From Phytophthora colocasiae (taxonomy: Eukaryota; Oomycota; Peronosporomycetes; Peronosporales; Peronosporaceae), in contig JAGKQI010000086.1 of the NCBI GenBank assembly GCA_018806915.1, positions 744,001 to 808,000 of the forward strand: DNA of 64,000 nucleotides. The letters run 5' to 3'. Position numbers and translations under genes: made by a program. Below the pieces are notes generated by a model. It worked only from the letters and a program-made list of their open reading frames with translations, made no database searches and was not told where the DNA came from. Positions 6,179-56,928 of the stretch are shown here, one piece after another (position 1 is the first letter of the stretch; each line of letters starts with the position of its first letter).

Positions 6179-6180
6179 GA

Positions 6181-8235: not shown

Positions 8236-8237
8236 CT

Positions 8238-8254
8238 TGGTAGCACTTGTAGTC
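8238..8254 (+). other. B primer binding site
   Basis: TGGTAGCACTTGTAGTC, two bases after the LTR; identical to the A family site. Confidence 0.75.
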
Positions 8255-8317
8255 AATCCTACGCCTACGCGGGTAGATTGATTACCTGAATCCTCTGTGG
8301 CCAGAAGTAGTTGTACC

Positions 8318-9313: not shown

Positions 9314-9331
9314 GGGCGGGGCGCCCTACTG
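9292..9331 (+). promoter_or_regulatory. B gag-pol frameshift signal, decayed heptamer
   Basis: Heptamer position reads G GGG AAC (9292-9298), one base from the GGGAAAC of family A. A 9-nt spacer follows, then stem CAGTAGGG (9308-9315), an 8-nt loop and CCCTACTG (9324-9331). The gag UAG is in the 5' arm. The -1 frame is open downstream until an indel in the protease. Confidence 0.7.
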
Positions 9332-11394: not shown

Positions 11395-11725
11395 CGATAT
11401 ATTCGTCCATAGCCGTGCCGAGGGAGGCAAGACGGCTATAGAGGTGCATCGGGAGCACCTCCGTCGAGTGTTTGAGGTCATGAGAGCTAACAAGCTCTAT
11501 GCCAACATCGACAAGTGCGTCTTCGCAGCTGAGGAGATTAAGGTCCTCGGCTGCTTTGTCAGCAGCGTCGGGGTCCGAGCGGATCCCGACAAGGTCAAAG
11601 CCATTGCGGCATGGCCTGTTCCTCGGTCACAAAAGGACCTGAGGAAGTGGTTGGGCTTAGCCAACTACTTGCACAAGTACAGTGCTGGCTATGCGGGACT
11701 CGCAAAGCTTTGTCGGACCTTCTGA
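11372..11725 (+). pseudogene. B RT C-terminal half
   Basis: Starts just after the destroyed catalytic motif with DDIFVHSRAEGGK and carries the RT thumb/connection (LGCFVSSVGV, LRKWLGLANYLHKY). It breaks at about 11700, where the sequence slips frame twice before RNase H resumes. Confidence 0.85.
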
Positions 11726-15700: not shown

Positions 15701-15870
15701 GTTGCTGGGCTTCCAAGGAAGCCTGGTACGCGTTAGCAGTGCGCCCTGTGCTCTGTGAGAGCAGAAGCCGCAGCGACTAGAGCTGGCGGCAGGTCGATCG
15801 ATTTCGACATTGAAGAGAGAAATGTGAAAGGGATTTTCTCTCTCCTCTGATTGGACGAGAGTCGAATCTA

Positions 15871-15882
15871 AGTGGGGAAGGA
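15871..15882 (+). other. B polypurine tract
   Basis: AGTGGGGAAGGA directly before the 3' LTR; expected plus-strand primer site for reverse transcription. Confidence 0.75.
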
Positions 15883-20162: not shown

Positions 20163-20202
20163 AACGCTCGCCGGGTTTGAATCCGGTACGAGACGAGCGT
20201 TC
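20153..20202 (+). promoter_or_regulatory. D gag-pro -1 frameshift signal
   Basis: Slippery G TTA AAC (20153-20159) in the gag frame, gag stop TAG (20160-20162), then a 9-bp stem GAACGCTCG (20162-20170) with CGAGCGTTC (20194-20202) enclosing an inner CCGG/CCGG hairpin (20171-20186). The -1 frame reads GTT AAA CTA GAA and continues into protease. E keeps the heptamer and the outer stem, with a changed but better-paired inner stem. Confidence 0.82.
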
Positions 20203-21508: not shown

Positions 21509-21630
21509 TTGAAGATCCGGCAACGTGTACTGTCTCTGGCCAGAGACTGGACGCCACCGTTGAGGATCGGCAGCACGTCCGTGCGACGGGCGACGACCAT
21601 CACTCCGACAAATCAGTCGGAGATGACGTT

Positions 21631-22866
21631 TTGGGGCGCCCTGGGGCGAATATGAATGCCCCGCTGCTGAGGTCGATATGGACATGCAGCGCGAGGCGAG
21701 GCGCGTCTAACGAGCCGTCGCATGCCTCAAACGGTGCCCTAGAAGCCGAAGGGCCCATGTCGACGCGCCTCCTTGAAGATCCGGAGGGCTGCCCTGTCTC
21801 TGCGCAGAGCCGGGACAATGATGTCGAAGGGTCGCCCCGTAATCATGAGACAGGTGACCATCACTCAGATGGCACAGTCGGATCCAAGTTTTCGGAGTGC
21901 CCTGAAGCCCACAGGAATGCCCCGGAGCTCGGGGAGCGCTCATTAGACGCGCCCGGTCAAGACCTTTCCGATGAGCTACCCCACGCCCCCCACCGACGCC
22001 TACAAGCAAAGTCGGATCCCAACCTGACACAGGTTGAAGATCGGTGTCGCGTATGCGACAGGGGTCAAGGACGGGGCAGGCCTGAACGGTCGTCTGATTC
22101 CGCACTTAGTGGGGATCTGAGCCCCTCATATTCACACGAATACGAGCGAGCGGCGGGGGCGACCAGCGGGAAGGGCGCCGTCGATTGCAAGACACCCAGG
22201 GCGATCTACGCGTGTACCAAGGGTGCTACGGATGCGCCTCCGCAAGACGAAGATGATGGTGCGCGCCAAGGCAAGGTTGAGGACTCAGGGGCGCCAGGGG
22301 ATCCGGATCAAGGCGCTACGGCACAAGAAGAGCTGGACCAAGGGGCGACGACGTACGTGGACGCGGCGAAGACCCCAGAAGACGATCCGAGAACTGGACG
22401 TGGTGCGCCGAAGGGTGATCCTGCTGTTGGATCCAGCTTGGAAGCAGGGAGCGAAGTCGGAAGACCTGCCGAGGGAGGTGCCGCTCGCGGACCGGATCCG
22501 GCCACAAGAAAGCTGGATCCTGGTAGCCATGTAACAGCCAGTGATCCGCCCAGAGTGGGGACAAGTGAGGATCCGTCACCGGCGTCAGGACATGGAGATC
22601 ACAAGTTCGCCTCAGACAAGGATCTCGTGGTTGGATCCCGACCGGATCTCGTGGCTGAGTCCCAGCCGGATCTCGAGGTTGGTGCCCGGCCGGATCCTGG
22701 ATCCGCAGAAGATCACGCCGACGATGGAGTGTTTGTCCACGAGAATGGCGGATCCTACGCGGAGGATCTCGAGAAGGAAATGGCGGTGTTGCCAGAGGTT
22801 GTGACGGCGACGGTCGAAGTGAAGATCGAGGATCTCCGGTGGGGATCCAGCCTCCAACACACCTGA
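21631..22866 (+). pseudogene. D protease-RT linker
   Basis: 411 open codons rich in Asp, Gly, Pro and Glu, with repeats such as LVVGSRPDLVAESQPDLEVGARPD. No catalytic domain recognised. It is in the same frame as RT downstream, but is left by a 1-base shift near 22845. Between about 22850 and 22975 the coding (TPEEIQRL, LLIGKGNALPPPA) is in another frame, as comparison with E shows, before a second shift restores the RT frame. Confidence 0.75.
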
Positions 22867-23001
22867 GGAGATCCAACGACTGGCGAATGTGATCTGGAAG
22901 TACAAGCACCTACTGATCGGAAAGGGCAACGCCTTGCCCCCGCCTGCTGTAGGCGCGATCTGTGACATTGATGTGGAGACGCGAAGCCAATTGCCCAGCG
23001 A

Positions 23002-26000
23002 GTGCGTAAGGTGGCGCCGCAGTATCGCGAGAAGCTCTCGGATCTGATCAAGGGATTGTTGCAAGCGAAGATCATCCAAGTCTCAACGTCACCATGGGCT
23101 TCGCCAATTGTCGTGATCATCAAGAAGAATGGCGTTGACATCAGGCTCTGCATCGACTACAGGTTGGTGAATAGCCTGACGAGGTTGATGGTATATCCTA
23201 TGCCTCTCATCAACGATCTACTGGAGGATCTCGACGCCGTGTTATGGTACTGTTCTCTCGACATGGCCAGTGGTTTTTGGGTTGTCTCCATGACGGATCG
23301 CGCAAGAGCCATCTCGGCATTTATCACCCCGTTTGGATTGTTCGAGTGGAACCGGATGCCGTTTGGTCTCAAGAATGCCCCGCAGATCTACCAGCGTTTG
23401 TTGGACAACACCCTCTATGGGTTCCTACGGATCCCGCCCACGGCCGGATCCGGATCCGCGTTGGATCTCTTCCGAGATGGGATCCCGGAGAGGAATGGTG
23501 AACAGTCTGTACTTGGACGAAGATCGTACATCGACGACATCTTAGTGACTGCCGGATCCTGGGATCACCTGTGTGAGCGAGTGCGTTTACTGCTGGAAGC
23601 CTGTGACAAGTGGAACTTGTCGATCAGCGTGGCCAAGAGTTTCTGGGGTCTGAAGAAGGTCGATTACCTGGGACACCGAGTGTCTAGCGAAGGACTAGAG
23701 GCACATCCGAAGGACCGAGAAGCGCTGGTGGATCTTGCGTTCCCGGGATCGCTGCGCGCTATGCAATCTTTCCTGGGTAGCCTAAACTACTACGCTCGAT
23801 TCATCGAGGACATGGCGGTCTACGCGTCGGTACTCTACGAACTGAGGGAGGTCGACTTCGCGGAGTTGAGGTCCAGCCGCAAGATCCTGCAGCCAACCGA
23901 CTCTGTGATCAAGGATCCCGAGGACCCGTCGAACCCGAGAGATCCGGATGAGAAGTGGATCCGTGCTTCAGCCGCCTTCGAGGCCCTGAAGAGGAAGATC
24001 GCTATGACTCCTACGCTTCGGCATTTCGATCCCGACAAGCAACCGGTGGTGATTGTCTACGCCAGTGAGTGGGCCATCTCAGCTTCCCTGACGCAGGATC
24101 ATGATGGGATCTACATGCCGGTGATGTTCGTTAGCAGATCCCTGAAACCGAACGAAGTGAACTATGGGATCGTAGAGAAGGAGGTGCTGGCCTTGCTAAG
24201 GATCCTGGATCTCGGATATTCCATGTTGGTTGGACGACGGATCCGGGTCCTAACCAGGCACTCTACCCTCCGGTGGTTGTTCCGTTCTACCGGACTACAA
24301 GGAAGGTTGGGCCAATGGGCGGCGCTGTTATCGCCTTGGGCTTTGGAGATCACGAAGTGCACGAAAGGGGAGGACGAGATCCTCGGATCCCTTGCCGCAA
24401 GTATCACCCCGAGATCCGAGGTGGATCAAGCTCTAGTAAACATCGCCCCGAGGAAAGAGCCACGCAGAGCAATCCAGATGCCAGTACCGACCGTAGGACC
24501 GGAGGAAGAGTTGTGGGTGGTTAGTTTCGACGGATCCGCCAGGGTGAAACGTGGCGGAGGATCCTTCAGCGCGATCGTCTGGAAGTTACCTGAATGGAGG
24601 GTGATTAAAGCAACATCTCGATACGCAGAGAACCTGACAGTCAACGAAGCAGAGTATAACGGACTTCTATTATGTTTCGAGTTACTCGAGGATCTGGCTA
24701 AGGGGCGACTTGTTATCTGCGGAGATTCGAATCTGGTGATCAGCCAGATGCGCGGCGAGATCGACTGTAAAGCGCCGGCCCTGACGTTACTGAGACAGAA
24801 GGCGCTAATGCGGCTTCGGGATTGGCCGGATCACGACCTGCTACATGTGAAGCGAGCGTGGAACGCAAGCGCCGACAGCTTGGCCAGTGCAGCATTGCAA
24901 CGAGAGAGCGGGATTACAGTCGACCAAGGGGCGGACCACGAGGATCTCGTCACTTTGAATCGGTTGGATGAGATTCTGACCTCGGGATCCGAGGATCCGA
25001 CACCACGGATCAGTGCAGTGGCTACTCGAAGACAAGCCAGAGAAGGGCGACCCCGAGTACTCGACGAGGAGTCCGTGCAACGGCTGAGGATCGACCGGAT
25101 CCGACAAGCCCAGGACGAAGAAACATGGATCTTCAACCTGAAGTCGTTCCTGCGGGGACAGCTGACGGATCTGACTGCGGCCGAAGCCAAAACGTGCCGT
25201 CTGCTAGCAGACAATTTCGAGTTGGACGAGGATGAGCTGTTGTTCTATTGCACGCCGTCACGAAGGGCCGAAGCCGATCGAGATGGATTATTACGACTGG
25301 TTATACCGGAGACGCTCCAGGCGGACCTGCTGCATCACTATCATAGCAGTCTAGAAGGAGGACATCAAGGGATCGGCCGTACGTACCAGAGGATCAAGGA
25401 CCACTTCTACTGAAGAGGACTTTTCAGATCCGTGCAGCAATTTGTCGGTGAATGCGTGGATTGTGAGACGGGCAAGGGGTGACCTACGATCCGTGGAGTG
25501 TCGCCAGGCAACATTCAAGCCACCTACCCGTTTCAAGTGATCGCCATGGATCATATACCCTCGCTACCAAGATCCAAGAACGGGAACACCGAGCTTCTAG
25601 TATGGGTGGACCTCTTCACTGGTTACGTGATCGTCAATGCTAATAACTCACGAACAGCTCAAGCTGTGGCGGAGTCCTATGAGATCTGTGTGTTTCGTCG
25701 ATTCGGCGCCAGCCAGGTGATCCGGCACGACCGAGAACCCGGGTTCATGTCCGATTTTTTTCGTGCTTTCAACCGGATCCTAGGCCAGCGCCAGAGAGCC
25801 ACTATGGCTTATCGACCACAGTCGAACGGCACGGCTGAACGGATGGTACAGACGATTACTCGAGCAATCAAGATGTATGTTCAGGATCCCGACCAGAGAG
25901 ATTGGGACGAGTATGCCGAACGCTTGACCTTTGCTTTGAACACTGCACAAGACCGGACTAGGGGCGACACGCCGTTCTACCTCGCCCATGGCTGGGATCC

Positions 26001-26817
26001 CAAGACAACTCTGGAGGCAACACTATCCGTAGGAAGTACCGGACGCCGAGATACCGATCCACGACGTTGGAGGTATAAGATCCAGCGACACTACCAACTG
26101 GCCAGGGCTGAGGTGAATGACCGCTTGAAGCAGGCGATCTCGGATCGTGCCGACCGGCACAACGAAGCGGCGACTCAACACTCCATCGAGGCCGGATCCC
26201 AAGTGTGGCTGTTCTTAGACAGAGTCAAGGAAGGGTACGCCAAGAAACTGGCTCACCTGTGGCATGGACCGTTCCGTGTGGCTGAAATGACGAATGAGTA
26301 TGCAGCTCGCTTGGAAATCGTGGGTACAGACTACCACTTGTTTCCGGTGGTGCACATCTCCAAGTTGAAGCCTGTCAGGACATTCCCAGACCGACCGAAG
26401 ATCCAGCTGACGGTGGACGAAGCGGATCGTTTAGACTTCGACGAAGCCTTGTTACCGGAGGACAGCTGGGAGCGTGATCTGGAAGATGGCGAGTTTGAAG
26501 TCGAGCGGATCGCGGACGTCCGGACCGGACGACCCACTCGGTATGGCCGGATCCGACGAGAGTTCCAAGTTTTCTGGAAAGGGTACGAGGACCCTACCTG
26601 GGTAGATGAAGCAGACCTGAACTGCGGCGCGTTACTGCATGAGTTCCTCCAAGAACGGAGCAAAAGGAACCGCTTCCAAGCGATGCAGTCTCATGAAGAG
26701 GAGTATGGATCTTCTATTGGTGAGGGCGCTCGCCAATGTGGAAGAAGAAGACTGGCAGCCTACTGCGAGTGGACACGTTGTGTATTTACATGTGAAGAAA
26801 AGAAGGGTGACCTCTGA
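23002..26817 (+). pseudogene. D RT, RNase H, archaeal-type RNase H, integrase, chromodomain
   Basis: One frame with two UGA stops (25411-25413 and 25480-25482) in the integrase zinc-binding region; E has Trp and Arg codons there. RT catalytic motif YIDD at residues 176-179. RNase H-like connection (VVIVYASEWAISASL, EKEVLALL) at about residues 345-440. A second RNase H (VSFDGSARVKRGG, NEAEYNGLL, GDSNLVISQ, WNASADSLASAALQ) at about 505-640. Integrase D,D,E: AMDHIPSLP, RHDREPGF, NGTAERMVQ. Chromodomain FQVFWKGYEDPTWV near 26560. Dual RNase H is known from some oomycete and plant Ty3 elements. Confidence 0.9.
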
Positions 26818-26860
26818 GTGGGGATCGGATTCCAGCTAGGTCGATGCCCGATCACTTACT

Positions 26861-27195
26861 CGGATCTCCAAGTCGGATCCTTGGGTTCTGAAGGCGGATC
26901 CTTGGGTCCTGAGGGCGGATCCTTGGGTTGTGAAGGCGGATCCTTGGGTCCTGAAGGCGGATCCTTGGGTTCAGAAGTTGGATCCTTGGGTTCTGAAGTC
27001 GGGTCCTTGGGTTCTGAAGTCGGATCCTTGGGTCCTGAAGGCGGATCCTTGGGTTCTGAAGTTGGATCCTTGGGTTCTGAAGGCGGATCCTTGGGTCCTG
27101 AAGGCGGATCCTTGGGTTTTGAAGACGGATCCTGGGATTTTGAAGCTGGATCTTTGGGTCCTGAAGGCGGATCCTCGGATCTCCAAGTCGGATCC
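26861..27195 (+). repeat. 21-bp tandem array downstream of D pol
   Basis: About 15 units of GGATCCTTGGGTTCTGAAGGC with small variation, bordered on both sides by CGGATCTCCAAGTCGGATCC. Because the unit is 21 bp, the array stays open in both orientations (plus GSLGSEG, minus DPPSEPK). It lies between the pol stop and the end of the antisense ORF. Confidence 0.95.
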
Positions 27196-27311
27196 TGGGG
27201 CCCTCTGGGTCTCACTATCATTGCTTGGGCGATTTGAAGTTAGAGTGTGCGGATCCTGAGCGAAGAAAGCCTGAGTGGACGAGAAGAATATATGGAGTTA
27301 AGTAACGCAGC

Positions 27312-44335: not shown

Positions 44336-45674
44336 AACACCCTACTGTTCCTCTCAAAGAACTCTTTGGAGAGGACTACGAAGACATCGTCGACTACGAC
44401 GACGACGATGTCGAGGAGGGAGAGCTTGATGACAAGCCTCCCGCTCCCGTGTCTTCGTCTGAAGACACGTCCAACCCACCCGTGGGGTCTCGACGACCTC
44501 GTGTTGAGGTCTTGGACGCTTCGAGCTTGAAGCGTCCGCGCAGTGATGACGAAGCGTCCCCCATGTTGAGGGCGCTCACTGCTCCACGCACTGATCCTCC
44601 AGTGCGTGCACCATGGCTGCCTACGGAGGCACAGATCCATGAGTGGTCCGGTGCTAGCTCACCACCGAACCCGATACTGTTTTACGCATGCAACAGTATC
44701 AACGACGACGACGTCGCCGCTGAGATTGTCTTTGAGTCCGAGACTCAAAGACGCGACTACTATATCGGGCTCTTTAATGAGCTCCGATACTATGCAGCGA
44801 AGAAGACTTCGCGCAAGAGCAAAGTGCCAGAGTGGCAGGCACTTTGTCAGTCGTGGAACGCCTTTGTTGAAAACTTCAACAAAGACCCGAAGGCATATCG
44901 CGATCGCGTTGCTGCGGCTCGCGATCGCTACTACACTTACACTACACGTGGTAAGTGTGAACGCCTCCATGATCAGTCATGGAAGCGGGGATCCCATGTG
45001 CCGTTCCCTTTGGCACACCCTGCCCGTGTTGCCAACCCTTGGCAACACGTCTCTCAGAAAGTGATCTCCTGGGGTACACGCTTGTACGTGTACCCGATCA
45101 CATCAAGGAGCTTCGTGGTCGTCTCGAGCCACGCGGAGCTCCGAGTGCTGTGGCTGACCGCAGCACTCCTCGTGCAGGGCTTACCCCTGCAAGTTATGGT
45201 GGGCTTCGTACGCCCTCACCATTTCCGGAACGTCCTCCATCAGGACGTTCCGCGGCTTCCACGTATCTCGATGGGGAGGAAATCCTCTCCAACGAATACG
45301 AAAACGAACCTCTTGAGAGTTCGTTCTCTTATGAGCCACAATCCGCTCCACAATCCGGCGGATCGCTCCACGCGCGTCGCGCAACGGCGGCGGAGGGGGT
45401 GGGAACACTCCCTCCGCATGGTCAACGCTATGACCATGACGATCGTGCCCTGCACGATCGAGTTGCTGCGCTGGAGCAGACACAGAGCGCTGAGATAGCT
45501 GCTCTGAAGCAGGAGGTTCGTGTCCTCCGTGCTGAGGTCTGCGAGGCAGCTCAGACTGCCTCGAACCTCTCGTCCGGTCTTGGGACGAGAGTGAACCGGT
45601 TGATCGACCGTGTCGACGGTCTCGATAAGGCCTTCCAGGCCTCTCGCACTCCTCAGTCGGACTACCAACCCTAG
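44336..45674 (+). pseudogene. C1 antisense ORF, main part
   Basis: Resumes after A1 at codons KHPTVPLKELFGEDYED. An acidic block (DYDDDDVEEGELDD), Ser/Pro stretch, and a predicted helical globular region follow (DYYIGLFNELRYYAAKK, WNAFVENFNKDPKAYRDR; 44740-44950). At about 45000-45060 the sensible frame changes (to GYTLVRVPDHIKELRG), the same in C2. The end is a coiled coil (DRVAALEQTQSAEIAALKQE, NRLIDRVDGLDKAFQ) with TAG at 45672-45674. From 45181 it is antisense to pol. Function unknown. Confidence 0.75.
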
Positions 45675-45885
45675 GTAGTCCGTGCTGCACGTACGGCTTC
45701 AATCGCCCGACGTAGAAGGTCGGGTGGAGCCTCATGCTGGACAGTATGCCCAGCCGGTACGCGTTGCCGTGCCGTTCAAGTACCTTGAACGGCCCAATGA
45801 ATCTTGGAGCAAGCCTTCTTGCTCCAAAGTCAGACACTGCATGTTTAGGCAGGTTTTGTGTAGCTAACAAAACTAATGAACCCAC
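45181..45885 (-). pseudogene. C1 integrase C-terminus and chromodomain
   Basis: GPF module (RFIGPFKVLERHGNAYRLG) and chromodomain (RFRIRWRGFPPHRDTWKPRN) ending at 45181. The upstream continuation to the integrase core (around 45890-46020) is shifted by small indels. 45181-45674 also codes for the coiled coil of the antisense ORF. Confidence 0.86.
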
Positions 45886-46023
45886 TTTGAATTCATTTAT
45901 GTTGCCACTACCAACATTATCAGCGTTCAGCTTCTGTCGATCGACAGAAGCTGCGATAGCATCCTGGACAAACCGTATGACGGATTGTCTTCGCTGTACA
46001 AAGTATAGCGAACCCTAGCTGAA

Positions 46024-47637
46024 TCATGTCAGCTTGTCGCCCTTGTCAGCAGCAGGCCCTGCCTGCTCGCTATCATCTCTCATGTCTGTGCCCGGCACAG
46101 ACATCGTGCGCTCGTTCCTGCTCGAACGAGACGTCGCACGCGTCACCGCAACTGATAGTGTGCTGCTATCAGTTGCATTCTGCGGTTGTTCGGACGCAAC
46201 CGTAGATCCTCCCCCACTTAAGGAGGAAGCTACCCCGCCGAGCATGCTCGGCAATCGTGGATGCCTCATGGCGTTCACGTAGAACGGTGTATGCCCTGTC
46301 GAGGCATGCACCGAGTTGTTGATGGCAAACTCTGCCATCGGCAAGCACTCGCTCCAATGCGGGAACGAGTGAGCGTAGCTCTTCAACGTGTCACCCAGTA
46401 CACGGTTGACACGTTCGGTCTGTCCGTCCGTCTGCGGATGATCCGCAGTCGACATTGATAACTGTGAACCAAGAAGTGTAACACTTCTTACCAGAACCGC
46501 GCTGTGAAGCGTGGATCACGGTCCGACACAATGTCGAGCGGCATGCCATGGTGTTTGAACACCATGTCAACAAACAGTCGCGCAGTCTGCGCGGCTGTAA
46601 CAGTTGCCGGGACGGCAGCAAGATGGACCATCTTGCTGAAACGGTCCACAAAGACAACGATGCCCGTCCTCCGCTTGCTGTCAGGCGGAAGACCGAAGAC
46701 AAAGTCCGTGGACATGGACTGCCAACACTCCGATGGAGTCTGTAGTGATTGAAGCGGAGCCTGCGAGAACTGCGCAGGCTTCACGCGTTGACAAACCTCG
46801 CAAGCACGTACGTACTTGCGCACCCACTTGTACTGGTGGTGCCAGTAGAAGTCACGCGTGAGAAGAGTGTATGTCTTCTCACGACCCGGATGCCCTGCCG
46901 TGGGGGCATCGTGATACTCGAACATGATCCTCAACCGGAGGTCATGATCATTCGGAACGACAATGCGATCCGCATTGTCGTCTACTGCACTGTACAACAG
47001 TAGGCCTTCGTGTACACGATAGTGGTGTACACGAGCTCGAAGATGAGGGGTTAGCTTCCGACGTGCCACGTCGGAAGGTGCTGCAACTCCAGCACCCCTT
47101 CGCGTCTGCATCCCTTGCATACGCGTTCTTCACGTCGTCAATCAACGTTGACGACGGCACACTTGTCATCACGACGCCAACAGCGTTGGCGTCGACCGTC
47201 TCCGCATAGTCAGGTCGACGCGATAACGCGTCGGCCACTACATTGAGTCTTCCGGGTTTGTACTCTACCCGGAAGTTGTACTCCGCGAAGAAGGACAGCC
47301 ATCTCGCCATACGTTGCGAGATGTGCGGCGACTTAATCGCCGTACGCAATGATCGCGTGGTCTGTATAGACTACGAACGGTCTACTCCCAAGTAGATACA
47401 CTCGGAACTTTGCGAGCGCATACTTCATGGCAAGGAGCTCCTTGTCATGTACGGGATAATTACGCTCAGCTGGCTTCAGCTGACGCGATTGATAGTAGAC
47501 TACACGATCACGCCCTTCGTGATCGTGTTGCATCAATGCACATCCGATTGAAAAGTCGGATGCATCGCGCACTACGTGGAATGGACGATCTTGGTCCGCC
47601 ACGGCCAAGATCGGCGCTTCAGTCTAGCCCTGCTTGA
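46024..47637 (-). pseudogene. C1 RNase H and integrase, broken
   Basis: RNase H (FHVVRDASDFSIGCALMQ, 47333-47608; FFAEYNFRVEYKPG, 46948-47349), integrase zinc-binding (HDAPTAGHPGREKTY, CEVCQRVKP) and core (TDFVFGLPPDSKRR, SDRDPRF at 46488-47120; QTERVNRVLGD at 46024-46455). Breaks shared with C2: TAG before RNase H, a shift at YTDHA, and an insertion after RFW that contains GAAGTGTTACACTTC. Confidence 0.87.
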
Positions 47638-48454
47638 CTGCACCGAATGCGTCCTCGCACTCGGTCGTCCAAATCCACTCAGCTTCTTTCTTAAGAAGCT
47701 GTGACAACGGGCGAATCTTGCCCGCATAGTTGTCCACGTACTTGCACAAGTACGTAAGGAACTGCCTCAGTCCCTTCACATTGGATGGCGTGGGCCATTC
47801 ATTGATCACTTTGACCTTCTCTGGGTCAGGGCGCACGCCGTCTTTCCCCACGAGACACCCCAGCACGGGTATCTCGCTCGCCCCGAAGATACACTTCTTC
47901 AGGTTCGCATAGAGCTTATGTTTCCTCATAATCTCTAGCAGCTTCCGGAGATGCACCTTGTGCATCTCAATGTCCGTCTTCCCGTTCACAGCCCGGCTGT
48001 GGACGAACACGTCGTCGAAGTAACTCGGTGCGAAGTCGCGCACCGAGCGCAATAGATGTGTCACGCATCTATTGAACGTCGCAGGGGCGTTCTTAAACCC
48101 CTGTGGCATGATGAGCCACTCCCAAAGCATACCGCTTGGAGTGCTTACCGCAGTGAGAGGGATGTTCCTCTCACGCATGAGGATCTGATAGAATCCATCA
48201 TGCAGATCTAAAGCACTGAAGATAGTGCTCAAGGCCATCGAATCGATGATAATATCTTTTCGCGGTATCGGCGTCTGCGCCGGTATCGTCGTATCGTTCA
48301 ACTTATTGTACGCATGAACGATGCGCCAGCCGCCCTGTGGTTTCTTCACACAGAATGTTGGGGCACTGTGCGGGGACTTTGATTCCCGCACTTGACCTCC
48401 AAGACGACGACTTTCAAAGAAGTCGTCGATCGCTTGCACTTGTTTACGCGGCAA
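47624..48454 (-). pseudogene. C1 reverse transcriptase, 5'-truncated
   Basis: RT from RKQVQAIDDFFESRR to FGAVKQG with SYFDDVFVHS intact. Upstream RT codons, protease and gag are missing: at 48454 the sequence switches to an inverted family A fragment. It ends in the TAG that C2 also has. Confidence 0.9.
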
Positions 48455-48849: not shown

Positions 48850-49309
48850 TGTAACGGGGTTACACGTACAAGTGGTAATACCACTTGTAACTCTAACAGT
48901 TAGGATAACTGTTAGAGGTTGGAAATGGGCCTCAGACCTTGGTGTGCTGTACACACCAATGGATACATGGGCGAACCACATTATTGGGTGGTTCGTGTGC
49001 ATTTGTGCATATTATTGGTAGAAAGTAACGGGTTTCTACCAATCACTGAGCAGAGTTTCTGCCAACCACACGTTGGCAGACCCTTTAGAAATAGATAACA
49101 AACAGTTTTAGGAGGTCCATAATTGGCTTATGCCAAATTCAATAACAGTTCTCATTTTACGGTATTTTGCAGTTTAATTTAGTTATATTTGATTTAATTA
49201 TACTTATTTAAATAAGTATACTTAAATTAAGTCTATTCTAATTGCACGCTTCCTCATACACGTAAGCGCACGTGTACGCCATCTAATAGGTCTAGGTAGA
49301 CCCATTACA
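48850..49309 (+). repeat. C2 5' LTR
   Basis: 460 bp, TGTAACGGGGTTACA at the start, ATTACA at the end. Hairpins follow each other: ACAAGTGGTA/TACCACTTGT, CTAACAGTTA/TAACTGTTAG, CGAACCAC/GTGGTTCG, an 11-bp stem at 49014-49043, TCTGCCAA/TTGGCAGA, ACTTATTTAAATAAGT, GGTCTA/TAGACC. Confidence 0.95.
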
Positions 49310-49311
49310 CC

Positions 49312-49329
49312 TGGTAGCACTTTGTAGTC
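49312..49329 (+). other. C2 primer binding site
   Basis: TGGTAGCACTTTGTAGTC, two bases after the LTR; the A/B site with one added T. Confidence 0.72.
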
Positions 49330-49395
49330 CGTCCCACGACCGACTGCTGTTCGTTCGTATGGAGTCATACGAACGCGGTAGAGAACTCCCAATGG

Positions 49396-50340
49396 ATGAG
49401 GGATCCGCTGGGACCTCACATGTCCGTGACGCGCACGGACTGTGCCCACCTGTCAGATCCAGAGTGGGAAGCTCTCCAAAGACTTTCACAAGTCATTGGA
49501 GAGGCAGCGGTAGCGACGATGCTTCGTACGCTATCGCCGACAGAGCAACACGGTGTTGATCTGGGGTACATTGTTAAGGAGCAACGAGATGTTGCTGCCT
49601 CGGTGGCTTCCCCGAAGCCACGCGTGGAGTCATTGAAACTCCACGTGAGTACCTACACGGGGAAGGAGGACGAGACCCTCCTTCGGTGGCTTGTCGAACT
49701 CGACACAGCCGTTGCGGCTCGACGTATCGTCGATCCGATGTCGAAGGTCGCGTTTGCCATGTCATGTCTTGGCGGACGTGCGAGGAGTTGGGCCTATGGG
49801 CGCCGACTCTCGGATCCTACGTGCTTCGGCACGTACGAGGCGTTCAAAGAGGAGCTCAAGCTTGCGTTTGAGCCCCCGAAGAACGAGTTCAGATCGAGAG
49901 CGGAGTTCCTCGATCTGCAGCAGGGCAAGGATGATGTTCATACCTTTGCCCAGCGTGCTCGATACTTGGTATCGAACATAGTGGCCAACCCGATCGACGA
50001 GGCGACCAAGGTCGTCACGTTCATGAAGGGACTAAGAGATGGTCCCGTCAAAACATACCTCTTCCGAGAGTATCCGAATACTCTCAAGGAAGCGATCAGC
50101 CTTGCGATGCAAGAGGAGTTTAGCTGGCGTCAAGCTAAACTCCATGCGACCGCGCCGAAGCCGGCGCGTCCTGTTGTGAAGACGGGAGGTACGGAACCTA
50201 TGGACCTCTCGAGTGCTACGACTGCTGGTCAACAGCAGCGTAGGAATAGCAAGGTTCGATGTTACAAGTGTGGTAACATCGGTCACTACGCAGTGAGTGC
50301 ACAGCGGGCGGGCGTTCAAAAAAACGCCAAGGACCAGTAG
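49396..50340 (+). CDS. gag: C2 Gag
   Basis: 314 residues from the ATG at 49396; a Met at 49420 (MSVTRTDCAHLSDPEW) fits the A and B starts equally well. Capsid region: LLRWLVELDTAVAAR, FLDLQQGKDDVHTFAQRAR. The knuckle is incomplete, CYKCGNIGHYAVSA: the last Cys is Ala, probably from paired indels. It ends in UAG inside the frameshift hairpin. Confidence 0.85.
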   Translation: MRDPLGPHMSVTRTDCAHLSDPEWEALQRLSQVIGEAAVATMLRTLSPTEQHGVDLGYIVKEQRDVAASVASPKPRVESLKLHVSTYTGKEDETLLRWLVELDTAVAARRIVDPMSKVAFAMSCLGGRARSWAYGRRLSDPTCFGTYEAFKEELKLAFEPPKNEFRSRAEFLDLQQGKDDVHTFAQRARYLVSNIVANPIDEATKVVTFMKGLRDGPVKTYLFREYPNTLKEAISLAMQEEFSWRQAKLHATAPKPARPVVKTGGTEPMDLSSATTAGQQQRRNSKVRCYKCGNIGHYAVSAQRAGVQKNAKDQ

Positions 50341-50360
50341 GCGCGGGGCGTCCTACTGGT
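50319..50360 (+). promoter_or_regulatory. C2 gag-pol -1 frameshift signal
   Basis: A AAA AAC (50319-50325) in the gag frame, a 7-nt spacer, 9-bp stem ACCAGTAGG (50333-50341) with CCTACTGGT (50352-50360), 10-nt loop; gag UAG at 50338-50340. The -1 frame (PVGAGRPTGDAVSR) leads straight into protease. Confidence 0.87.
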
Positions 50361-51700
50361 GATGCAGTCTCGCGTGTCGAGCTTGGACACGCGACAATGA
50401 GGACTGCTGCCCCCAGCGAGAAAGCTTCTCGCTGTAAGCTGCAAGATGACAAGCCAAACCTTGTCATCCTGAACGTGATGTCGAAGAGAGTTAACTCTCT
50501 TCGTGCCCTAGTGGACTCGGGCGCGTCGAACAACTTTGTTCGACAGGGAAGTCTTCGAAGGTTTGACTTCGAAGAGGCCAACACGCCTCGCAGCGTGTTG
50601 GAGGTGCGGTAGGCAACAGGTGCCACCGTGAGGACTGAGAAGCGCGTAGTCCATGTGCGCTTCTCTTACAAACGAAGGACGTTACTGGGAGAAGCGTACG
50701 CTCGTACGCTTCAACAACGCATGCGCGACAGAGAGCGATGGCCCTGTCAGTGCTGCACATGCACCAGGCGGTGCATGTGTTTCCCCAGTTAAGGCAGCAG
50801 CGTTCGCCGCTGCCTCCGATCGCCGCCGGCGACCGCCAGCGACTCAGGGAGTCGTTGGGAGAAAATGTGTGTCGACTCAGAAATCTGAGCCGAAGAGTCG
50901 CGGTCACATGAGTGATGGTCAGGTGAATCGCATTCACCTGAGAGAAGGTAAAATACCGGTATTACCGGTATCCTTGGAGGTACTTCAAGGGTCGCGCCGA
51001 CGACGTCGCGTCAACTCTGGGAGTTGACGAAACAAATAATATTCGGGGAACCGAAAGGCGTGCGTCAGCTCTGGGAGCTGATGCCACTGGCGCATCGCTG
51101 CTAGTTCTGGGAACTAGCGATCGTGCATCAGCTCCGGGAGCTGATGATGCGTGTACAAGCGAACGTTCGCTAGCGCAGGAAGCTAGCGAGAGCACGTCGA
51201 CTCCGGGAGTCGACGATGCGGTTGCTTTATCCGCTCCGGGAGCGGATGGAGGCGCAGCGGTTCAGGAAACCGACTGCGCGGCAGGAGGAGCTGGCGGTTG
51301 CAAACGCCCAGCACCCGAACAACCTGCGTGCTCACGTGCAGCAGCGCTGCACGCGATGAGCGGCACTCAAGCCGGGCTTGATAGTGCGAGTCAGCGGAAG
51401 GAATCCGCTGACGATTGCGATAACGTCCCGTCCAAGGTGCGATGCCTTGGACGTGGAGCACCTGGAGCCGGGCTCCACGGTAGACCTTCGCGGCGCAAGC
51501 TCAGGGAGCTGCGCGAGTCTCAGTCCGGGACTGAGACGGGTGTATCTGCAGTGCAGACACCGAGTGTCGAGACGTTGAACGTCTTGACACGTACTGGTAC
51601 TGGACTACAGTACCAGAGGATGCGGTTGGAGAATCCGCCGACGAGTGCGTCGGCGTTGACCGCATTTCCAACGATGAGTTGGTAGCGCTTCGCACGAGAC
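50325..51700 (+). pseudogene. C2 protease and linker
   Basis: Protease motif ALVDSGASNNFVRQ (about 50505-50545) in the -1 frame; TAG at 50610-50612 follows LEVR, where A has RLATG. After that the reading shifts frame several times; pieces of the linker can be read to RT at 51701. The linker includes a chain of palindromes described separately. Confidence 0.8.
51008..51275 (+). repeat. chain of CTCYGGGAG-centred palindromes in the C2 linker
   Basis: Perfect palindromes around YGG: GTCAACTC/GAGTTGAC (51010-51028), TCAGCTC/GAGCTGA (51065-51081), CTAGTTC/GAACTAG (51101-51117), CATCAGCTC/GAGCTGATG (51126-51146), CGTCGACTC/GAGTCGACG (51195-51215), ATCCGCTC/GAGCGGAT (51229-51247). Arms differ, the centre stays. 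Both strands encode SAPGAD/STPGVD-type hexapeptides. Confidence 0.9.
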
Positions 51701-52849
51701 TTGTACGATGGACGCATCGAACAAATTTGCATTCGCTCGGATATCGAGAGAGTGGAGCGCGAGGCCGAAGAGCTGAAGCAGCTCGTAGTCGATGGGATCA
51801 CTGAGGGTGATGACTCCCTCAGTGCGAAGACTAAGAAGCAGCGCTTCGAAGAGCAGAGTTGGGACTCGTTGAGGTCGAGTCCCTACTACGAAGTTCTGCG
51901 GGAGTACAAGGATGTACTCCCGGACGAGGTTCCTTCGGAGCTTCCGAAGGATAAGGGCGTACAGCACGAGATTGATCTCGTGCCGGGCACGAAGTACTGT
52001 GTTGCACGGCAGTGGCCACTGCCGCGTGAACAAGTGCAAGCGATCGACGACTTCTTTGAAAGTCGTCGTCTTGCAGGTCAAGTGCGGGAATCAAAGTCCC
52101 CGCACAGTGCTCCAACGTTCTGTGTTAAGAAACCACAGGGCGGCTGGCGCATCGTTCATGCGTATAACAAGCTGAACGATGCGACGATACCGGCGCAGAC
52201 GCCGATACCGCGAAAAGATATTATCATCGATTCGATGGCCTTGAGCACTATCTTCAGTGCTTTAGATCTGCATGATGGATTCTATCAGATCCTCATGCGT
52301 GAGAGGAACATCCCTCTCACTGCGGTAAGCACTCCAAGCGGTATGCTTTGGGAGTGGCTCATCATGCCACAGGGGTTTAAGAACGCCCCTGCGACGTTCA
52401 ATAGATGCGTGACACATCTATTGCGCTCGGTGCGCGACTTCGCACCGAGTTACTTCGACGACGTGTTCGTCCACAGCCGGGCTGTGAACGGGAAGACGGA
52501 CATTGAGATGCACAAGGTGCATCTCCGGAAGCTGCTAGAGATTATGAGGAAACATAAGCTCTATGCGAACCTGAAGAAGTGTATCTTCGGGGCGAGCGAG
52601 ATACCCGTGCTGGGGTGTCTCGTGGGGAAAGACGGCGTGCGCCCTGACCCAGAGAAGGTCAGGTGATCAATGAATGGCCCACGCCATCCAATGTGAAGGG
52701 ACTGAGGCAGTTCCTTACGTACTTGTGCAAGTACGTGGACAACTATGCGGGCAAGATTCGCCTGTTGTCACAGCTTCTTAAGAAAGAAGCTGAGTGGATT
52801 TGGACGACCGAGTGCGAGGACGCATTCGGTGCAGTCAAGCAGGGCTAGA
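51701..52849 (+). pseudogene. C2 reverse transcriptase
   Basis: RT from SPYYEVLREYKDVLPDEVP through the primer-template region (ARQWPLPREQVQAIDDFF, SPHSAPTFCVKKPQGGWR) to SYFDDVFVHSRAVNG near 52450; a 1-base loss at about 52660 (EKVR) shifts the thumb region to 52663-52848. The TAG after FGAVKQG is shared with C1. Confidence 0.88.
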
Positions 52850-54400
52850 CTGAAGCGCCGATCTTGGCCGTGGCGGACCAAGATCGTCCATTCCACGTAG
52901 TGCGCGATGCATCCGACTTTTCAATCGGATGTGCATTGATGCAACACGATCACGAAGGGCGTGATCGTGTAGTCTACTATCAATCGCGTCAGCTGAAGCC
53001 AGCTGAGCGTAATTATCCCGTACATGACAAGGAGCTCCTTGCCATGAAGTATGCGCTCGCAAAGTTCCGAGTGTATCTACTTGGGAGTAGACCGTTCGTA
53101 GTCTATACAGACCACGCGATCATTGCGTACGGCGATTAAGTCGCCGCACATCTCGCAACGTATGGCGAGATGGTTGTCCTTCTTCGCGGAGTACAACTTC
53201 CGGGTAGAGTACAAACCCGGAAGACTCAATGTAGTGGCCGACGCGTTATCGCGTCGACCTGACTATGCGGAGACGGTCGACGCCAACGCTGTTGGCGTCG
53301 TGATGACAAGTGTGCCGTCGTCAACGTTGATTGACGACGTGAAGAACGCGTATGCAAGGGATGCAGACGCGAAGGGGGTGCTGGAGTTGCAGCACCTTCC
53401 GACGTGGCACGTCGGAAGCTAACCCCTCATCTTCGAGCTCGTGTACACCACTATCGTGTACACGAAGGCCTACTGTTGTACAGTGCAGTAGACGACAATG
53501 CGGATCGCATTGTCGTTCCGAATGACCGCGACCTCCGGTTGAGGATCATGTTCGAGTATCACGATGCCCCCACGGCAGGGCATCCGGGTCGTGAAGACAT
53601 ACACTCTTCACGCGTGACTTCTACTGGCACCACCAGTACAAGTGGGTGCGCAAGTACGTACGTGCTTGCGAGGTTTGTCAACGCGTGAAGCCTGCGCAGT
53701 TCTCGCAGGCTCCTCTTCAATCACTACAGACTCCATCGGAGTGTTGGCAGTCCATGTCCACGGACTTTGTCTTCGGTCTTCCGCCTGACAGCAAGCGGAG
53801 GACGGGCATCGTTGTCTTTGTGGACCGTTTCAGCAAGATGGTCCATCTTGCTGCCGTCCCGGCAACTGTTACAGCCGCGCAGACTGCGCGACTGTTTGTT
53901 GACATGGTGTTCAAACACCATGGCATGCCGCTCGACATTGTGTCGGACCGTGATCCACGCTTCACAGCGCGGTTCTGGTAAGAAGTGTTACACTTCTTGG
54001 TTCACAGTTATCAATGTCGACTGCGGATCATCCGCAGACGGATTTCGGACAGACCGAACGTGTCAAACCGTGTACTGGGTGACACGTTGAAGAGCTACGC
54101 TCACTCGTTCCCGCATTGGAGCGAGTGCTTGCCGATGGCAGAGTTTGCCATCAACAACTCGGTGCATCCTCGACAGGGCATACACCGTTCTACGTGAACG
54201 CCATGAGGCATTCACGATTGCCGAGCATGCTCGGCGGGGTAGCTTCCTCCTTAAGTGGGGAGGATCTACGGTTGCGTCCGAACAATCGCAGAATGCAACT
54301 GATAGCAGCACACTATCAGTTGCGGTGATTGCGTCACGACGTCTCGTTCGAGCAGGAACGAGCGCACGATGTCTGTGCCGGGCACAGACATGAGAGATGA
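52850..54400 (+). pseudogene. C2 RNase H and integrase, broken
   Basis: RNase H at 52864-53139 and 53123-53422, zinc-binding region (HDAPTAGHPGRED) 53404-53688, catalytic core 53646-53981 (TDFVFGLPPDSKRR, SDRDPRFTARFW). The break after RFW at 53981 and the shift at 53130 are the same as in C1. Beyond 53985 only out-of-frame pieces of the DHPQTDGQTERVN region remain, with extra indels not in C1. Confidence 0.85.
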
Positions 54401-55294
54401 TAGCGAGCAGGCAGGGCCTGCTGCTGACAAGGGCGACAAGCTGAAAGGATTCAGCTCGGGTGCGCTAGACTTTGTCCAGCGAAGACAAGCCGTCATACGG
54501 TTTGTCCAGGATGCTATCGCAGCTTCTGTCGATCGACAGAAGCTGAACGCTGATAATGTTGGTAGTGGCAACATAAATGAATTCAAAGTGGGTTCATTAG
54601 TTTTGTTAGCTACACAAAACCTGCCTAAACATGCAGTGTCTGACTTTGGAGCAAGAAGGCTTGCTCCAAGATTCATTGGGCCGTTCAAGGTACTTGAACG
54701 GCACGGCAACGCGTACCGGCTGGGCATACTGTCCAGCATGAGGCTCCACCCGACCTTCTACGTCGGGCGATTGAAGCCGTACGTGCAGCACGGACTACCT
54801 AGGGTTGGTAGTCCGACTGAGGAGTGCGAGAGGCCTGGAAGGCCTTATCGAGACCGTCGACACGGTCGATCAACCGGTTCACTCTCGTCCCAAGACCGGA
54901 CGAGAGGTTCGAGGCAGTCTGAGCTGCCTCGCAGACCTCCAGGCACGGAGGACACGAACCTCCTGCTTCAGAGCAGCTATCTCAGCGCTCTGTGTCTGCT
55001 CCAGCGCAGCAACTCGATCGTGCAGGGCACGATCGTCATGGTCATAGCGTTGACCATGCGGAGGGAGTGTTCCCACCCCCTCCGCCGCCGTTGCGCGACG
55101 CGCGTGGAGCGATCCGCCGGATTATGGAGCGGATTGTGGCTCATAAGAGAACGAAATCTCAAGAGGTTCGTTTTCGTATTCGTTGGAGAGGATTTCCTCC
55201 CCATCGAGATACGTGGAAGCCGCGGAACGTCCTGATGGAGGACGTTCCGGAAATGGTGAGGGCGTACGAAGCCCACCATAACTTGCAGGGGTAA
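54369..55294 (+). pseudogene. C2 integrase C-terminus and chromodomain
   Basis: GPF module (RFIGPFKVLERHGNAYRLG) and linker in one frame to about 54940; the chromodomain (RFRIRWRGFPPHRDTWKPRN) is in the frame 54992-55294. A loss of bases near 54945 relative to C1 separates them. Overlaps the antisense ORF from about 54800. Confidence 0.83.
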
Positions 55295-56367
55295 GCCCTG
55301 CACGAGGAGTGCTGCGGTCGGCCACAGCACTCGGAGCTCCGCGTGGCACAATACGACCACGGAGCTCCTTGATGTGATCGGGTACACGTACAAGCGTGTA
55401 CCCCAGGAGATTACTTTCTGAGAGACGTGTTGCCATGGGTTGGCAACACGGGCAGGGTGTGCCAAAGGGAATGGCACATGGGATCCCCGCTTCCATGACT
55501 GATCATGGAGGCGTTCACACTTACCACGTGTAGTGTAAGTGTAGTAGCGATCGCGAGCCGCAGCAACGCGATCGCGATATGCCTTCGGGTCTTTGTTGAA
55601 GTTTTCAACAAAGGCGTTCCACGACTGACAAAGTGCCTGCCACTCTGGCACTTTGCTCTTGCGCGAAGTCTTCTTCGCTGCATAGTACCGGAGCTCATGG
55701 AAGAGCCCGATATAGTAGTCGCGTCTTTGAGTCTCGGACTCAAAGACAATCTCAGCGGCGACGTCGTCGTCGTTGATACTGTTGCATGCGTACAACAGTA
55801 TCGGGTTCGGTGGTGAGCTAGCACCGGACCACTCATGGATCTGTGCCTCAGTAGGCATCCATGGTGCACGCACTGGAGGATCAGTGCGTGGAGCAGTGAG
55901 CGCCCTCAACATGGGGGACGCTTCGTCATCACTGCGCGGACGCTTCGAGCTTGAAGCGTCCAAGACCTCAACACGAGGTCGTCGAGACCCCACGGGTGGG
56001 TTGGACGTGTCTTCAGACGAAGACACGGGAGCGGGAGGCTTGTCATCAAGCTCTCCCTCCTCGACATCGTCATCGTCGTAGTCGACGATGTCTTCGTAGT
56101 CCTCTCCAAAGAGTCGACGATGTCTTCGTAGTCCTCTCCAAAGAGTTCTTTGAAAGGAACAGCAGGGTGTTTGATCCCTGCTAGCGAAGAAGAAGTCTTC
56201 TTCGCTTGCTTCTCCTTGTGGCCAGCATGGTAGTCGGTGACAGAGAGCTTCTCTGTCGAACCGCTGGAAGCAGCAGTGCTAGTAGGCACTGCTGAGGTTG
56301 TTGTTCCTGCTGCAGAAGCAGCAGGAGAGGCTTGCGCGGACGGAGATGTGGGCGTTGGCGAGTCCAT
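54805..56367 (-). pseudogene. C2 antisense ORF
   Basis: Same protein as C1: ATG at 56367 (MDSPTPTSPSAQASPA), KKTSSSLAGIKHPAVPFKELFGEDYED uninterrupted here because A1 is absent. A 32-bp tandem duplication (56081-56144) shifts the frame at the acidic block. From 56026 the middle part is open (SSEDTSNPPVGSRRPRV, DYYIGLFHELRYYAAKK), then the same frame change as in C1 near 55430 leads to the part with GYTLVRVPDHIKELRG. The coiled-coil end is frayed. Confidence 0.75.
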
Positions 56368-56458
56368 TGCGAAATGAACTCGGATTTCTCTTGGGAATTT
56401 GACGATCTTGTCAAGTTCTGTTGATTGACGTATCGAGACCGATACGTCGAATCTTAAC

Positions 56459-56468
56459 GGGGGGATGG
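56459..56468 (+). other. C2 polypurine tract
   Basis: GGGGGGATGG immediately before the 3' LTR; the same G run precedes the C1 3' LTR on the minus strand. Confidence 0.75.
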
Positions 56469-56928
56469 TGTAACGGGGTTACACGTACAAGTGGTACAAC
56501 CACTTGTAACTCTAACAGTTAGGATAACTGTTAGAGGTTGGAAATGGGCCTCAGACCTTGGTGTGCTGTACACACCAATGGATACATGGGCGAACCACAT
56601 TATTGGGTGGTTCGTGTGCATTTGTGCATATTATTGGTAGAAAGTAACGGGTTTCTACCAATCACTGAGCAGAGTTTCTGCCAACCACACGTTGGCAGAC
56701 CCTTTAGAAATAGATAACAAACAGTTTTAGGAGGTCCATAATTGGCTTATGCCAAATTCAATAACAGTTCTCATTTTACGGTATTTTGCAGTTTAATTTA
56801 GTTATATTTGATTTAATTATACTTATTTAAATAAGTATACTTAAATTAAGTCTATTCTAACTGCACGCTTCCTCATACACGTAAGCGCACGTGTACGCCA
56901 TCTAATAGGTCTAGGTAGACCCATAACA
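56469..56928 (+). repeat. C2 3' LTR
   Basis: 460 bp, differing from the 5' LTR in very few positions (GTACAACCAC for GTAATACCAC near the start, CCATAACA for CCATTACA at the end). Confidence 0.94.

Follow-up and report, generated by a model that had tools for sequence, protein, structure and literature searches.

The family C element

The window analysed here is a stretch of 64,000 nucleotides of Phytophthora DNA. Its positions 48850-56928 are occupied by an element, referred to as family C, which is a Ty3/Gypsy chromodomain LTR retrotransposon of a Phytophthora. The element is bounded by paired forward-strand LTRs of 460 bp, as is expected of Ty3/Gypsy; the 5' LTR (48850-49309) and the 3' LTR (56469-56928) share 99.1% identity. 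Between them, all on the forward strand, lie the gag ORF (49318-50340), with its Retrotrans_gag and Ty3_capsid domains, an open spacer (50942-51685), the reverse transcriptase (RT) ORF (51686-52666) and the part of pol for RNase H, integrase and the chromodomain (52667-55291). This last part is broken in the window copy, and its frame end was taken from another copy and its domains from a second copy in the window, which lies at 44361-48453 on the reverse strand and is 98.5% identical to 52020-56114. The gag, RT and integrase domains (PF03732, PF19259, PF00078 and PF17921) show the Ty3/Gypsy order, RT and then integrase, and inside family C copies, C17:296393 (L029) among them, RNase H (PF17919) stands between the two. 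The rve score is 31.3 bits, slightly below its cut-off of 32.6. An antisense ORF of 433 aa, stop to stop (54977-56278, reverse strand), overlaps the 3' end of pol; it has relatives across many Phytophthora, and a Pfam search of it returned no domain. Three further stretches of the window serve for comparison, namely family A (1-6180, reverse strand), family B (8236-15882, forward strand) and family D (17835-27200, forward strand), another Gypsy.

Hairpin excess against controls

The original prediction described 53903-55450 (forward strand) as a dense chain of short perfect hairpins that ought to be rare by chance, and all ten hairpins that it listed are perfect inverted repeats. Its stem lengths held in part: the palindrome at 54520-54545 has arms of 13 bp and no loop, as described, but two stems are longer than was given, 54369-54391 having a stem of 11 bp with a loop of 1 nt, and 55224-55248 a stem of 10 bp, or 11 bp with one outward base. 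The density proved to be real and even understated. These 1548 bp contain 18 non-overlapping perfect stems of at least 8 bp with loops of at most 12 nt, or one every 86 bp or so, together with 34 stems of at least 6 bp, against shuffle means of 0.32 (maximum 2) and 4.3 (maximum 11), respectively (Markov-1, n=200). Shuffles that preserve the codons (60 per ORF) likewise gave nothing similar, with means of 0.22-0.57 per ORF against 7-18 stems of at least 8 bp in each of the seven family C ORFs. By this count, gag holds 8 stems (0.32 in codon shuffles), RT 11 (0.42) and the antisense ORF 18 (0.52), and the spacer, the densest part, holds 13 in 744 nt (0.53). One family C copy, whose pol portion is open over 3315 nt, has 40 stems, against a shuffle mean of 1.41 (maximum 7, n=200).

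The hairpins had been placed in pol and the antisense ORF; they are there, but their range is wider and takes in the whole element: gag as well as pol and the antisense ORF, and also the LTR over its first half, where 56469-56699 contains seven of the ten hairpins (stem of at least 6 bp) of the 3' LTR. Counted over 7.2 kb, family C carries 91 perfect stems of at least 8 bp, and all 40 sequences compared have 11.2-13.5 such stems per kb, against 11 in the 50 kb of five random 10-kb loci. About 45% of the internal region lies within hairpins, when perfect stems of at least 6 bp are taken and loops are counted. The related families B and A carry a lower load than C. Family B is intermediate, with 40 stems of at least 8 bp and a loop peak at 4 nt, and family A has few such stems (6) and 2.7-4.1 times as many stems of at least 6 bp as its codon shuffles. 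Family D, the hairpin-poor comparison with 2 stems of at least 8 bp in 9.4 kb, and copia stand at the level of the shuffles.

Composition and two-strand coding

The antisense ORF over the 3' end of pol would suit the view that the hairpins simply follow from base composition or from two-strand coding, the latter having been offered in the original prediction. However, the same kind of excess is present in the LTR and in ORFs at a distance from the antisense ORF: the gag, RT and integrase frames hold 7.8-17.5 stems per kb, compared with 13.8 for the antisense ORF itself. The excess also vanishes in both codon-preserving and Markov shuffles, and the by-product reading is therefore already refuted and has practically no chance of being right.

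Geometry and placement of the hairpins

Stem length in family C peaks at 9 bp, with 47 stems of 9 bp, two of 12 bp and one of 13 bp, and no arm is longer than 13 bp. The loops run from 0 nt and stop near 12 nt, and the span of the hairpins peaks at 23-24 nt. Loops of 0-8 nt show a tens-fold excess, whereas stems of at least 7 bp with long loops are at background (9 against 8.2 for 21-40 nt, 9 against 9.8 for 41-60 nt) and stems of at least 8 bp are only slightly above it (4 against 2.1 and 5 against 2.2), and thus the excess is local. Zero-loop palindromes with stems of at least 8 bp number 6, against 0.1 expected. Regular spacing is rejected, as the gaps fit random placement, with a mean of 36 nt between stems of at least 7 bp. 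The pairing classes relative to the codon frame (25, 23 and 15) reveal no strong rule, and among tetraloops GNRA and UNCG account for none and one of 19 in C and for one each of 33 in B.

The sole recurring loop motif is a C-YGG-G centre, found by eye in 11 hairpins, nine of them within the spacer 50942-51685. It is common to all six units of a tandem array, u1-u6 (51008-51249, forward strand), whose arms differ and covary. Repeated hairpin elements of the REP-like or fold-back kind were considered and rejected, since the arms vary from hairpin to hairpin despite this shared centre. Between families, the stem columns that overlap number 123 against 99 expected for C and B, 53 against 38 for C and A, and 63 against 30 for B and A, and the places of the hairpins are therefore mostly family-specific.

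Mutation or selection

Perfect arms could be written by a mutation process, that is, snap-back or template switching of the reverse transcriptase, with selection filtering the protein only. The perfection of the arms and the symmetry of the strands fit such a process, as do two two-sided changes between copies and some excess of hairpin gains among changes found in at least two copies (22 against 11.5). Private changes, in contrast, gain hairpins at the chance rate (28 against 26.4 expected), although these may be mostly later host mutations. An inverted template present in the changed state only was found in none of 99 testable multi-base change clusters. Where a hairpin is new in one family, both of its arms mostly depart from the relative; of 75 such hairpins, counted over family comparisons that overlap, only three combine an unchanged arm with at least three changes in the other. 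Products of quasi-palindrome correction by template switching, another origin put forward at the outset, are rejected on these three counts, and a mutation process as such is very improbable.

Natural selection, instead, appears to maintain the hairpin chain of family C. Stem-breaking changes common to at least four copies number 11, against 37.9 locally expected; the synonymous ones alone number 5 against 12.5, and the non-coding ones 3 against 19.4. Those in two or three copies number 37 against 53.3, and private non-synonymous ones are at expectation (86 against 88.3). We read the deficit among shared changes as selection, with the reservation that shared changes are linked by descent, which makes the z values of this test too sharp. 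Also against this reading, a Fisher test at synonymous sites alone, at least four copies against private, gave p 0.36. Covariation among nine hairpins of the one spacer amounts to 26 two-sided cells, a value reached in none of 500 shuffles, and there the amino acids are coupled across the loop. Compensatory pairs thus do exist, many among the hairpins of this spacer; between copies, where they had been sought, they are few (two clear cases).

Strand symmetry and folding

Tolerance of G-U in family C does not exceed that of A-C, and therefore both strands seem to matter: shared broken pairs number 17 (G-U) and 21 (A-C), stems of at least 9 bp number 102 when G-U is allowed and 114 when A-C is allowed, and the outer flank mismatches are 25 each. 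Selection on the folded sense RNA alone, for compaction, packaging by Gag, stability or ribosome pausing, as in some RNA viruses, would draw on the strong folding of the element, whose median z-score, taken per 150 nt, reaches -3.9 in C (37 segments) and -3.4 in B, compared with -0.5 in D. The one-mismatch stems of C (G-U 11, A-C 7) agree with it, as does family B, which has its loop peak at 4 nt and favours G-U in three of four tests: stems of at least 9 bp (40 against 29), one-mismatch stems (6 against 2) and the first loop mismatch (21 against 5). The fourth, the outer flank, goes the other way (G-U 17, A-C 20). Against the sense RNA stand the three tests in C given above, the first loop mismatch in C (A-C 22, G-U 8) and the folds of the two strands, sense and antisense, which are no more unlike in C than in D and copia. 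At the first loop mismatch, C and B lean in opposite directions. We consider selection on sense RNA alone unlikely, though a serious contender. As to packaging, proposed in the original prediction, a fold is certainly encoded, but C shows no sense-strand (G-U) preference.

Selection may also act on DNA, where hairpins, in the single-stranded cDNA while reverse transcription proceeds or in the integrated duplex, would aid synthesis, shield the strand or make recombination among copies harder. Strand symmetry, Watson-Crick purity and the excess of zero-loop palindromes are in its favour; on the other side, family D and copia manage without hairpins, and we know of no need for so many of them in Gypsy cDNA. 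This reading is quite unlikely.

A proposed shield against complementary strands

The explanation to which we tentatively lean is that selection holds family C over its whole length, protein code included, as a chain of local, perfectly Watson-Crick hairpins with arms near 9 bp and loops from 0 up to about 12 nt, and that the benefit is most likely shielding from complementary strands. Sense and antisense strands would each fold locally upon themselves, so that neither pairs with a complementary strand; the partners avoided may be RNAi guides and targets, and the antisense transcripts of many dispersed copies. Arms kept under about 13 bp would, moreover, be too short for Dicer to use. The "dsRNA property" suggested early on comes closest to this shielding, since both strands seem to matter.

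A more specific version is, on balance, less likely than not: a Phytophthora Gypsy clade would bear a strand-symmetric second code over its protein code, in which hairpins spanning about 23 nt render each strand complementary to itself and less ready to pair with other molecules. They would form a cloak over the whole sequence against homology-based silencing, with C having it in the strongest form and its relatives in a weaker one. The capped arms and the span of 23-24 nt count for the shielding, the span lying close to the sizes of Phytophthora small RNAs, 21 and 25 nt. The available parts of PMC3804510 describe these two sizes, with the 25-nt class arising mainly from transposable elements, and those of PMC3522703 describe small RNAs along Gypsy elements in both orientations. 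Several results count against the shielding. Hairpin spacing is random and leaves many open targets, 21- and 25-mers from C fold on themselves, on average, no more strongly than those from A and B, families poor in hairpins are no rarer than C, and family B leans to G-U. The inverted repeats of P. infestans are a further point against it, though they are of another size class. According to the parts of PMC3804510 available, they are the most potent sources of small RNAs in that species. Separately, hairpins were rejected as a cause of copy number, as first-look candidates for A (926) and B (824) exceed those for C (700); D has 380.

A hairpin chain within protein code is an unusual second layer of information, and its many copies are a natural test of the extent to which a genome parasite can bend its codons for nucleic-acid folding. 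Family C offers a test of whether folding shields transposons from RNAi, and a direct comparison is possible, as hairpin load ranges from high through middle and low to none among the families of a single genome. It is also a warning against treating synonymous sites in such elements as neutral clocks.

Comparison with known systems

Family C shares its LTRs, gag, RT, integrase with H2C2 zinc finger and chromodomain with the oomycete Ty3/Gypsy chromodomain elements, but the hairpin chain and the antisense ORF set it apart. The available passages of PMC5348765, on the Chronos and Archon elements, do not contain the word "hairpin". No relatives were confirmed in viral_contigs. Among titles and abstract beginnings, no literature on hairpin-chained coding sequence in retrotransposons was found, which is weak evidence of absence given that subscription journals lie mostly outside this coverage.

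Genome-scale ordered RNA structure is a feature of some RNA viruses. The likeness lies in a folding energy below that of shuffles along the whole coding length of C; the differences are that C is a retrotransposon with short, local, perfect Watson-Crick hairpins, and that sense-specific folding with G-U tolerance was not found in C (B leans to G-U). In the parts of PMC11381356 available, the genomic RNA of yeast Ty3 has structured regions, with up to 30% in the stable class, as well as a small number of 6-nt palindromes, one of which serves dimerisation; both elements are thus Gypsy-type with structure and short palindromes, but C has its 91 perfect stems. The inverted repeats of PMC3804510, as far as its available text goes, are from the same genus and yield 21-nt small RNAs from hairpin RNAs, whereas the arms in C are at most 13 bp. 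A survey of perfect inverted repeats, PMC13155455, gives a eukaryote mean of 1.91 per kb (arms of at least 10, spacer of at most 8), and its available passages do not mention Phytophthora or oomycetes. Its repeats, as described there, resemble those of C in their perfect arms, short spacers and relative conservation of arms within species; family C differs in having 36 arms of at least 10 (loop of at most 14) in 8.1 kb, dense inside protein code.

Hairpin Excess in Family C and Its Relatives

Family C, a Ty3/Gypsy chromodomain retrotransposon at 48850-56928, was predicted to carry a near-continuous chain of short perfect hairpins in its coding sequence at 53903-55450. All ten of the hairpins named in that prediction were found, and every one is perfect. 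Counting perfect stems of at least 8 bp with loops of at most 12 nt and no overlaps, this region contains 18 stems, against a mean of 0.32 and a maximum of 2 in 200 first-order shuffles. Applied to the whole window, the rule finds 231 stems (15, 11 and 21 in three shuffles), which cluster at 44-57 kb and, less strongly, in a second zone at 8-17 kb. Shuffling that leaves protein and codon counts unchanged abolishes the excess. The seven family C ORFs tested carry 7-18 stems of at least 8 bp each (shuffle means 0.22-0.57), and three ORFs of the related Gypsy family B (8236-15882) carry 6-12 (0.48-1.03). Three ORFs of family A (1-6180), also related, carry 0-3 (0.22-0.75), with stems of at least 6 bp being 2.7-4.1 times commoner than in such shuffles. 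The remaining eight ORFs (the hairpin-poor family D at 17835-27200, copia, and one unassigned) have 0-1; the family D gag ORF shows some excess of stems of at least 6 bp, 14 against 7.5 (shuffle maximum 13).

Between 49310 and 56468 (7159 bp) there are 91 perfect stems of at least 8 bp, and stems of at least 6 bp with their loops cover 45% of the sequence. Stem lengths over 48850-56928 show no smooth fall-off, with 48 stems of 5 bp, 38 of 6, 30 of 7, 24 of 8, 47 of 9, 16 of 10, 17 of 11, 2 of 12 and 1 of 13. Loop sizes range from 0 to about 12 nt, with counts near background past about 15 nt. Longer stems have shorter loops (rank correlation -0.33 for stems of at least 8 bp), giving outer spans that gather around 23-24 nt; family B, in contrast, lacks this correlation, and its loops peak at 4 nt. 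Gaps between family C hairpins are consistent with random placement, and hairpins are as dense in the LTR's first half as in the coding part. The outermost pair of stems of at least 8 bp (48850-56928) is C-G, with C on the 5' side, in 47%, against 25% for G-C.

The hairpins of C, B and A lie mostly at different codons when the RT-RNase H part is aligned; stem columns common to two families are modestly above chance where C is one of the two, and twofold between B and A. Eight further Gypsy places in the same genome, sampled at 1.8 kb each, fit a gradient of stems of at least 8 bp: 0 in L053 and L056, 1 in L052, 3 each in L055 and L059, 7 in L054, and 20 and 22 in L057 and L058, which proved to be further family C copies. 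L054, L055 and L059 are mutually 81-87% identical, and the hairpins gained or lost among them differ by a single change or a few, which fall in either arm.

The Carrier Element

Family C has 460-bp LTRs that are 99.1% identical. Pfam matches comprise gag, RT, a zinc-binding integrase domain, a Tf2-like SH3 domain and a chromodomain, the last three coming from the second window copy (44361-48453, minus strand); the integrase core scores slightly below cut-off. Pol is split into several frames in the window copy, and is open across the fetched part in some of the 17 other copies examined. The element sits in a Phytophthora genome: among the matches listed, those closest to gag (93%) and to an antisense ORF (85%) are both P. 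citrophthora annotations, and of the 120 relatives listed per search almost every named one is from a Phytophthora species. A first look at the genome (92.5 Mb, 105 contigs) gave 700 candidate places for family C; scoring covered the best 40.

The genes are those of an ordinary Ty3/Gypsy element. The hairpin chain may be new: titles and opening abstract lines of the literature searched gave no account of one in a retrotransposon, and the words Phytophthora and oomycete do not appear in a survey of perfect inverted repeats across the tree of life (PMC13155455).

The antisense ORF (54977-56367, minus strand) lies over the 3' end of family C and has no Pfam domain. It has 503 relatives at E <= 0.001, the named ones among the 120 listed being Phytophthora, and it is a putative conserved antisense gene of Gypsy elements. 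Most of it (55596-56159) is absent from 7 of 39 other copies, and in one copy examined the flanks abut.

Probable Selection on the Hairpins

Selection on the family C hairpins is well supported by changes between copies. The comparison used 40 sequences, being all the scored places (38 fetched, the second window copy and the window copy), in pieces of 3.1-4.9 kb over 52000-56928; all carry 11.2-13.5 stems of at least 8 bp per kb. At two-state sites covered by at least 25 sequences, we scored the rarer base for breaking or creating a stem of at least 7 bp. The expectation came from making that change at sites up to 75 bp away that match in base and in coding class. Sites short of matched neighbours (6/661, 1/164 and 1/108) or with at least three states were left out.

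Private changes (655) cause 168 stem losses against 194.1 expected and 28 gains against 26.4. Changes in 2-3 copies (163) cause 37 losses against 53.3 and 14 gains against 7.7, and those in four or more copies (107) 11 against 37.9 and 8 against 3.8. The more copies share a change, the larger is the deficit of losses, a pattern that would follow if breaking stems lowers the number of an element's offspring. In the last class, losses are 5 against 12.5 at synonymous sites, 2 against 4.5 at non-synonymous sites, 3 against 19.4 in the non-coding part before the LTR, and 1 against 1.5 in the LTR. Private non-synonymous losses are at expectation (86 against 88.3), and private synonymous losses are already somewhat low (32 against 43.5). 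The rarer base is not necessarily the newer; where it is older, later hairpin gains score as losses, a bias that runs against the deficit. Descent links the shared changes to one another, so that formal z values make the result look more certain than it is. By a plain Fisher test of four or more copies against private changes, p is 0.0003 over all sites and 0.005 in the non-coding part; at synonymous and non-synonymous sites it is 0.36 and 0.25, respectively.

Covariation and a Test of Arm-Copying

Compensatory pairs between copies, which had been proposed as a check, are present but few, with two clear two-sided changes, 55868/55889 in five copies and 56185/56204 in eight. Another two pairs show two Watson-Crick types, with A-C there in the majority of copies; the other candidates lie in repeats or have carriers that differ between the two sides.

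The spacer between gag and RT (50942-51685) contains nine hairpin units with a common centre, C-YGG-G, and differing arms: u1-u6 at 51008-51249, and u7-u9 at three further spacer places. Across them 95.1% of cells pair, both sides vary in eight of nine pairs, and G-U is confined to the two outermost pairs. Two-sided changes occur in 26 cells, a number matched by none of 500 shuffles. The units were chosen for their centre and arms, and u7-u9 have no obvious tandem relationship, so that this test is biased towards the structure. In u1-u6, residues before and after the loop are coupled as threonine/valine, alanine/alanine and valine/threonine. Seven of eight fetched copies have one unit more than the window copy, this extra unit carrying one A-C mismatch in six of the seven; the eighth piece stops short of there. 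The same centre is seen in 11 otherwise different hairpins at 51126-54391, nine in the spacer and two in pol.

As to copying of one arm from the other, 99 of 100 change clusters (at least two changes within 12 nt on the same copies) were testable. An inverted template was present only in the changed state in none of the 99, only in the common state in three, and in both states in one. Where a hairpin of one family is absent from a relative, its arms differ from the relative about equally; for 18 such hairpins between C and B, the summed arm difference is 27 (binomial mean 32.2). One arm unchanged with at least three changes in the other was found in only 3 of 75 hairpins over all 12 overlapping family comparisons.

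Strand and Possible Function

If sense RNA alone mattered, G-U mismatches should be tolerated. Family C shows no G-U preference over A-C in shared broken pairs (17 and 21), private broken pairs (52 and 58), stems of at least 9 bp with the mismatch allowed (102 and 114) or outer flanks (25 and 25). Among one-mismatch stems, a smaller sample, there are 11 G-U and 7 A-C in C, and 6 and 2 in B. The sense strand of C folds 1.3 kcal/mol per 150 nt below the antisense (p 0.12), a gap no larger than in hairpin-lacking D (2.0) or copia (5.6). Family B leans to G-U in three of four tests (one-mismatch stems, inner mismatch, stems of at least 9 bp), the outer flanks showing no lean (17 G-U, 20 A-C); thus what shaped B may have been its RNA, and in C both strands.

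Local folding of both strands, with arms of 9-11 bp, would fit a guard against pairing between molecules. Guides would be antisense and targets sense, G-U in one strand being A-C in the other. Phytophthora small RNAs lie along Gypsy elements in either orientation (PMC3522703). They come in classes of 21 and 25 nt, and transposable elements are the main source of the 25-nt class (PMC3804510). The share of 25-mers folding below -10 kcal/mol is 9.5% sense and 10.9% antisense in C, 6.5-7.3% in B, 3.7-3.9% in A and 0.1-0.6% at two random loci; averaged over 21-mers and over 25-mers, the folding energy of C does not lie below that of B and A. Random hairpin spacing leaves open targets in C, and hairpin-poor families are no rarer than C, so that a guard of either strand against pairing with other molecules is a tentative proposal, to which we give slightly less than even weight.

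Other Features of Families B and D

Long open frames on the minus strand of family B near the end of pol (13516-14373 and 13896-14819, within a noted range of 8282-14819) are perhaps another antisense gene, going by the reading frames. The pol of family D (22972-25413) resembles that of Chronos-type elements, presumably with a second RNase H (compare PMC5348765). At the end of family D (26870-27204) there are tandem repeats, spaced in multiples of about 21 nt, that match many times in other D copies.
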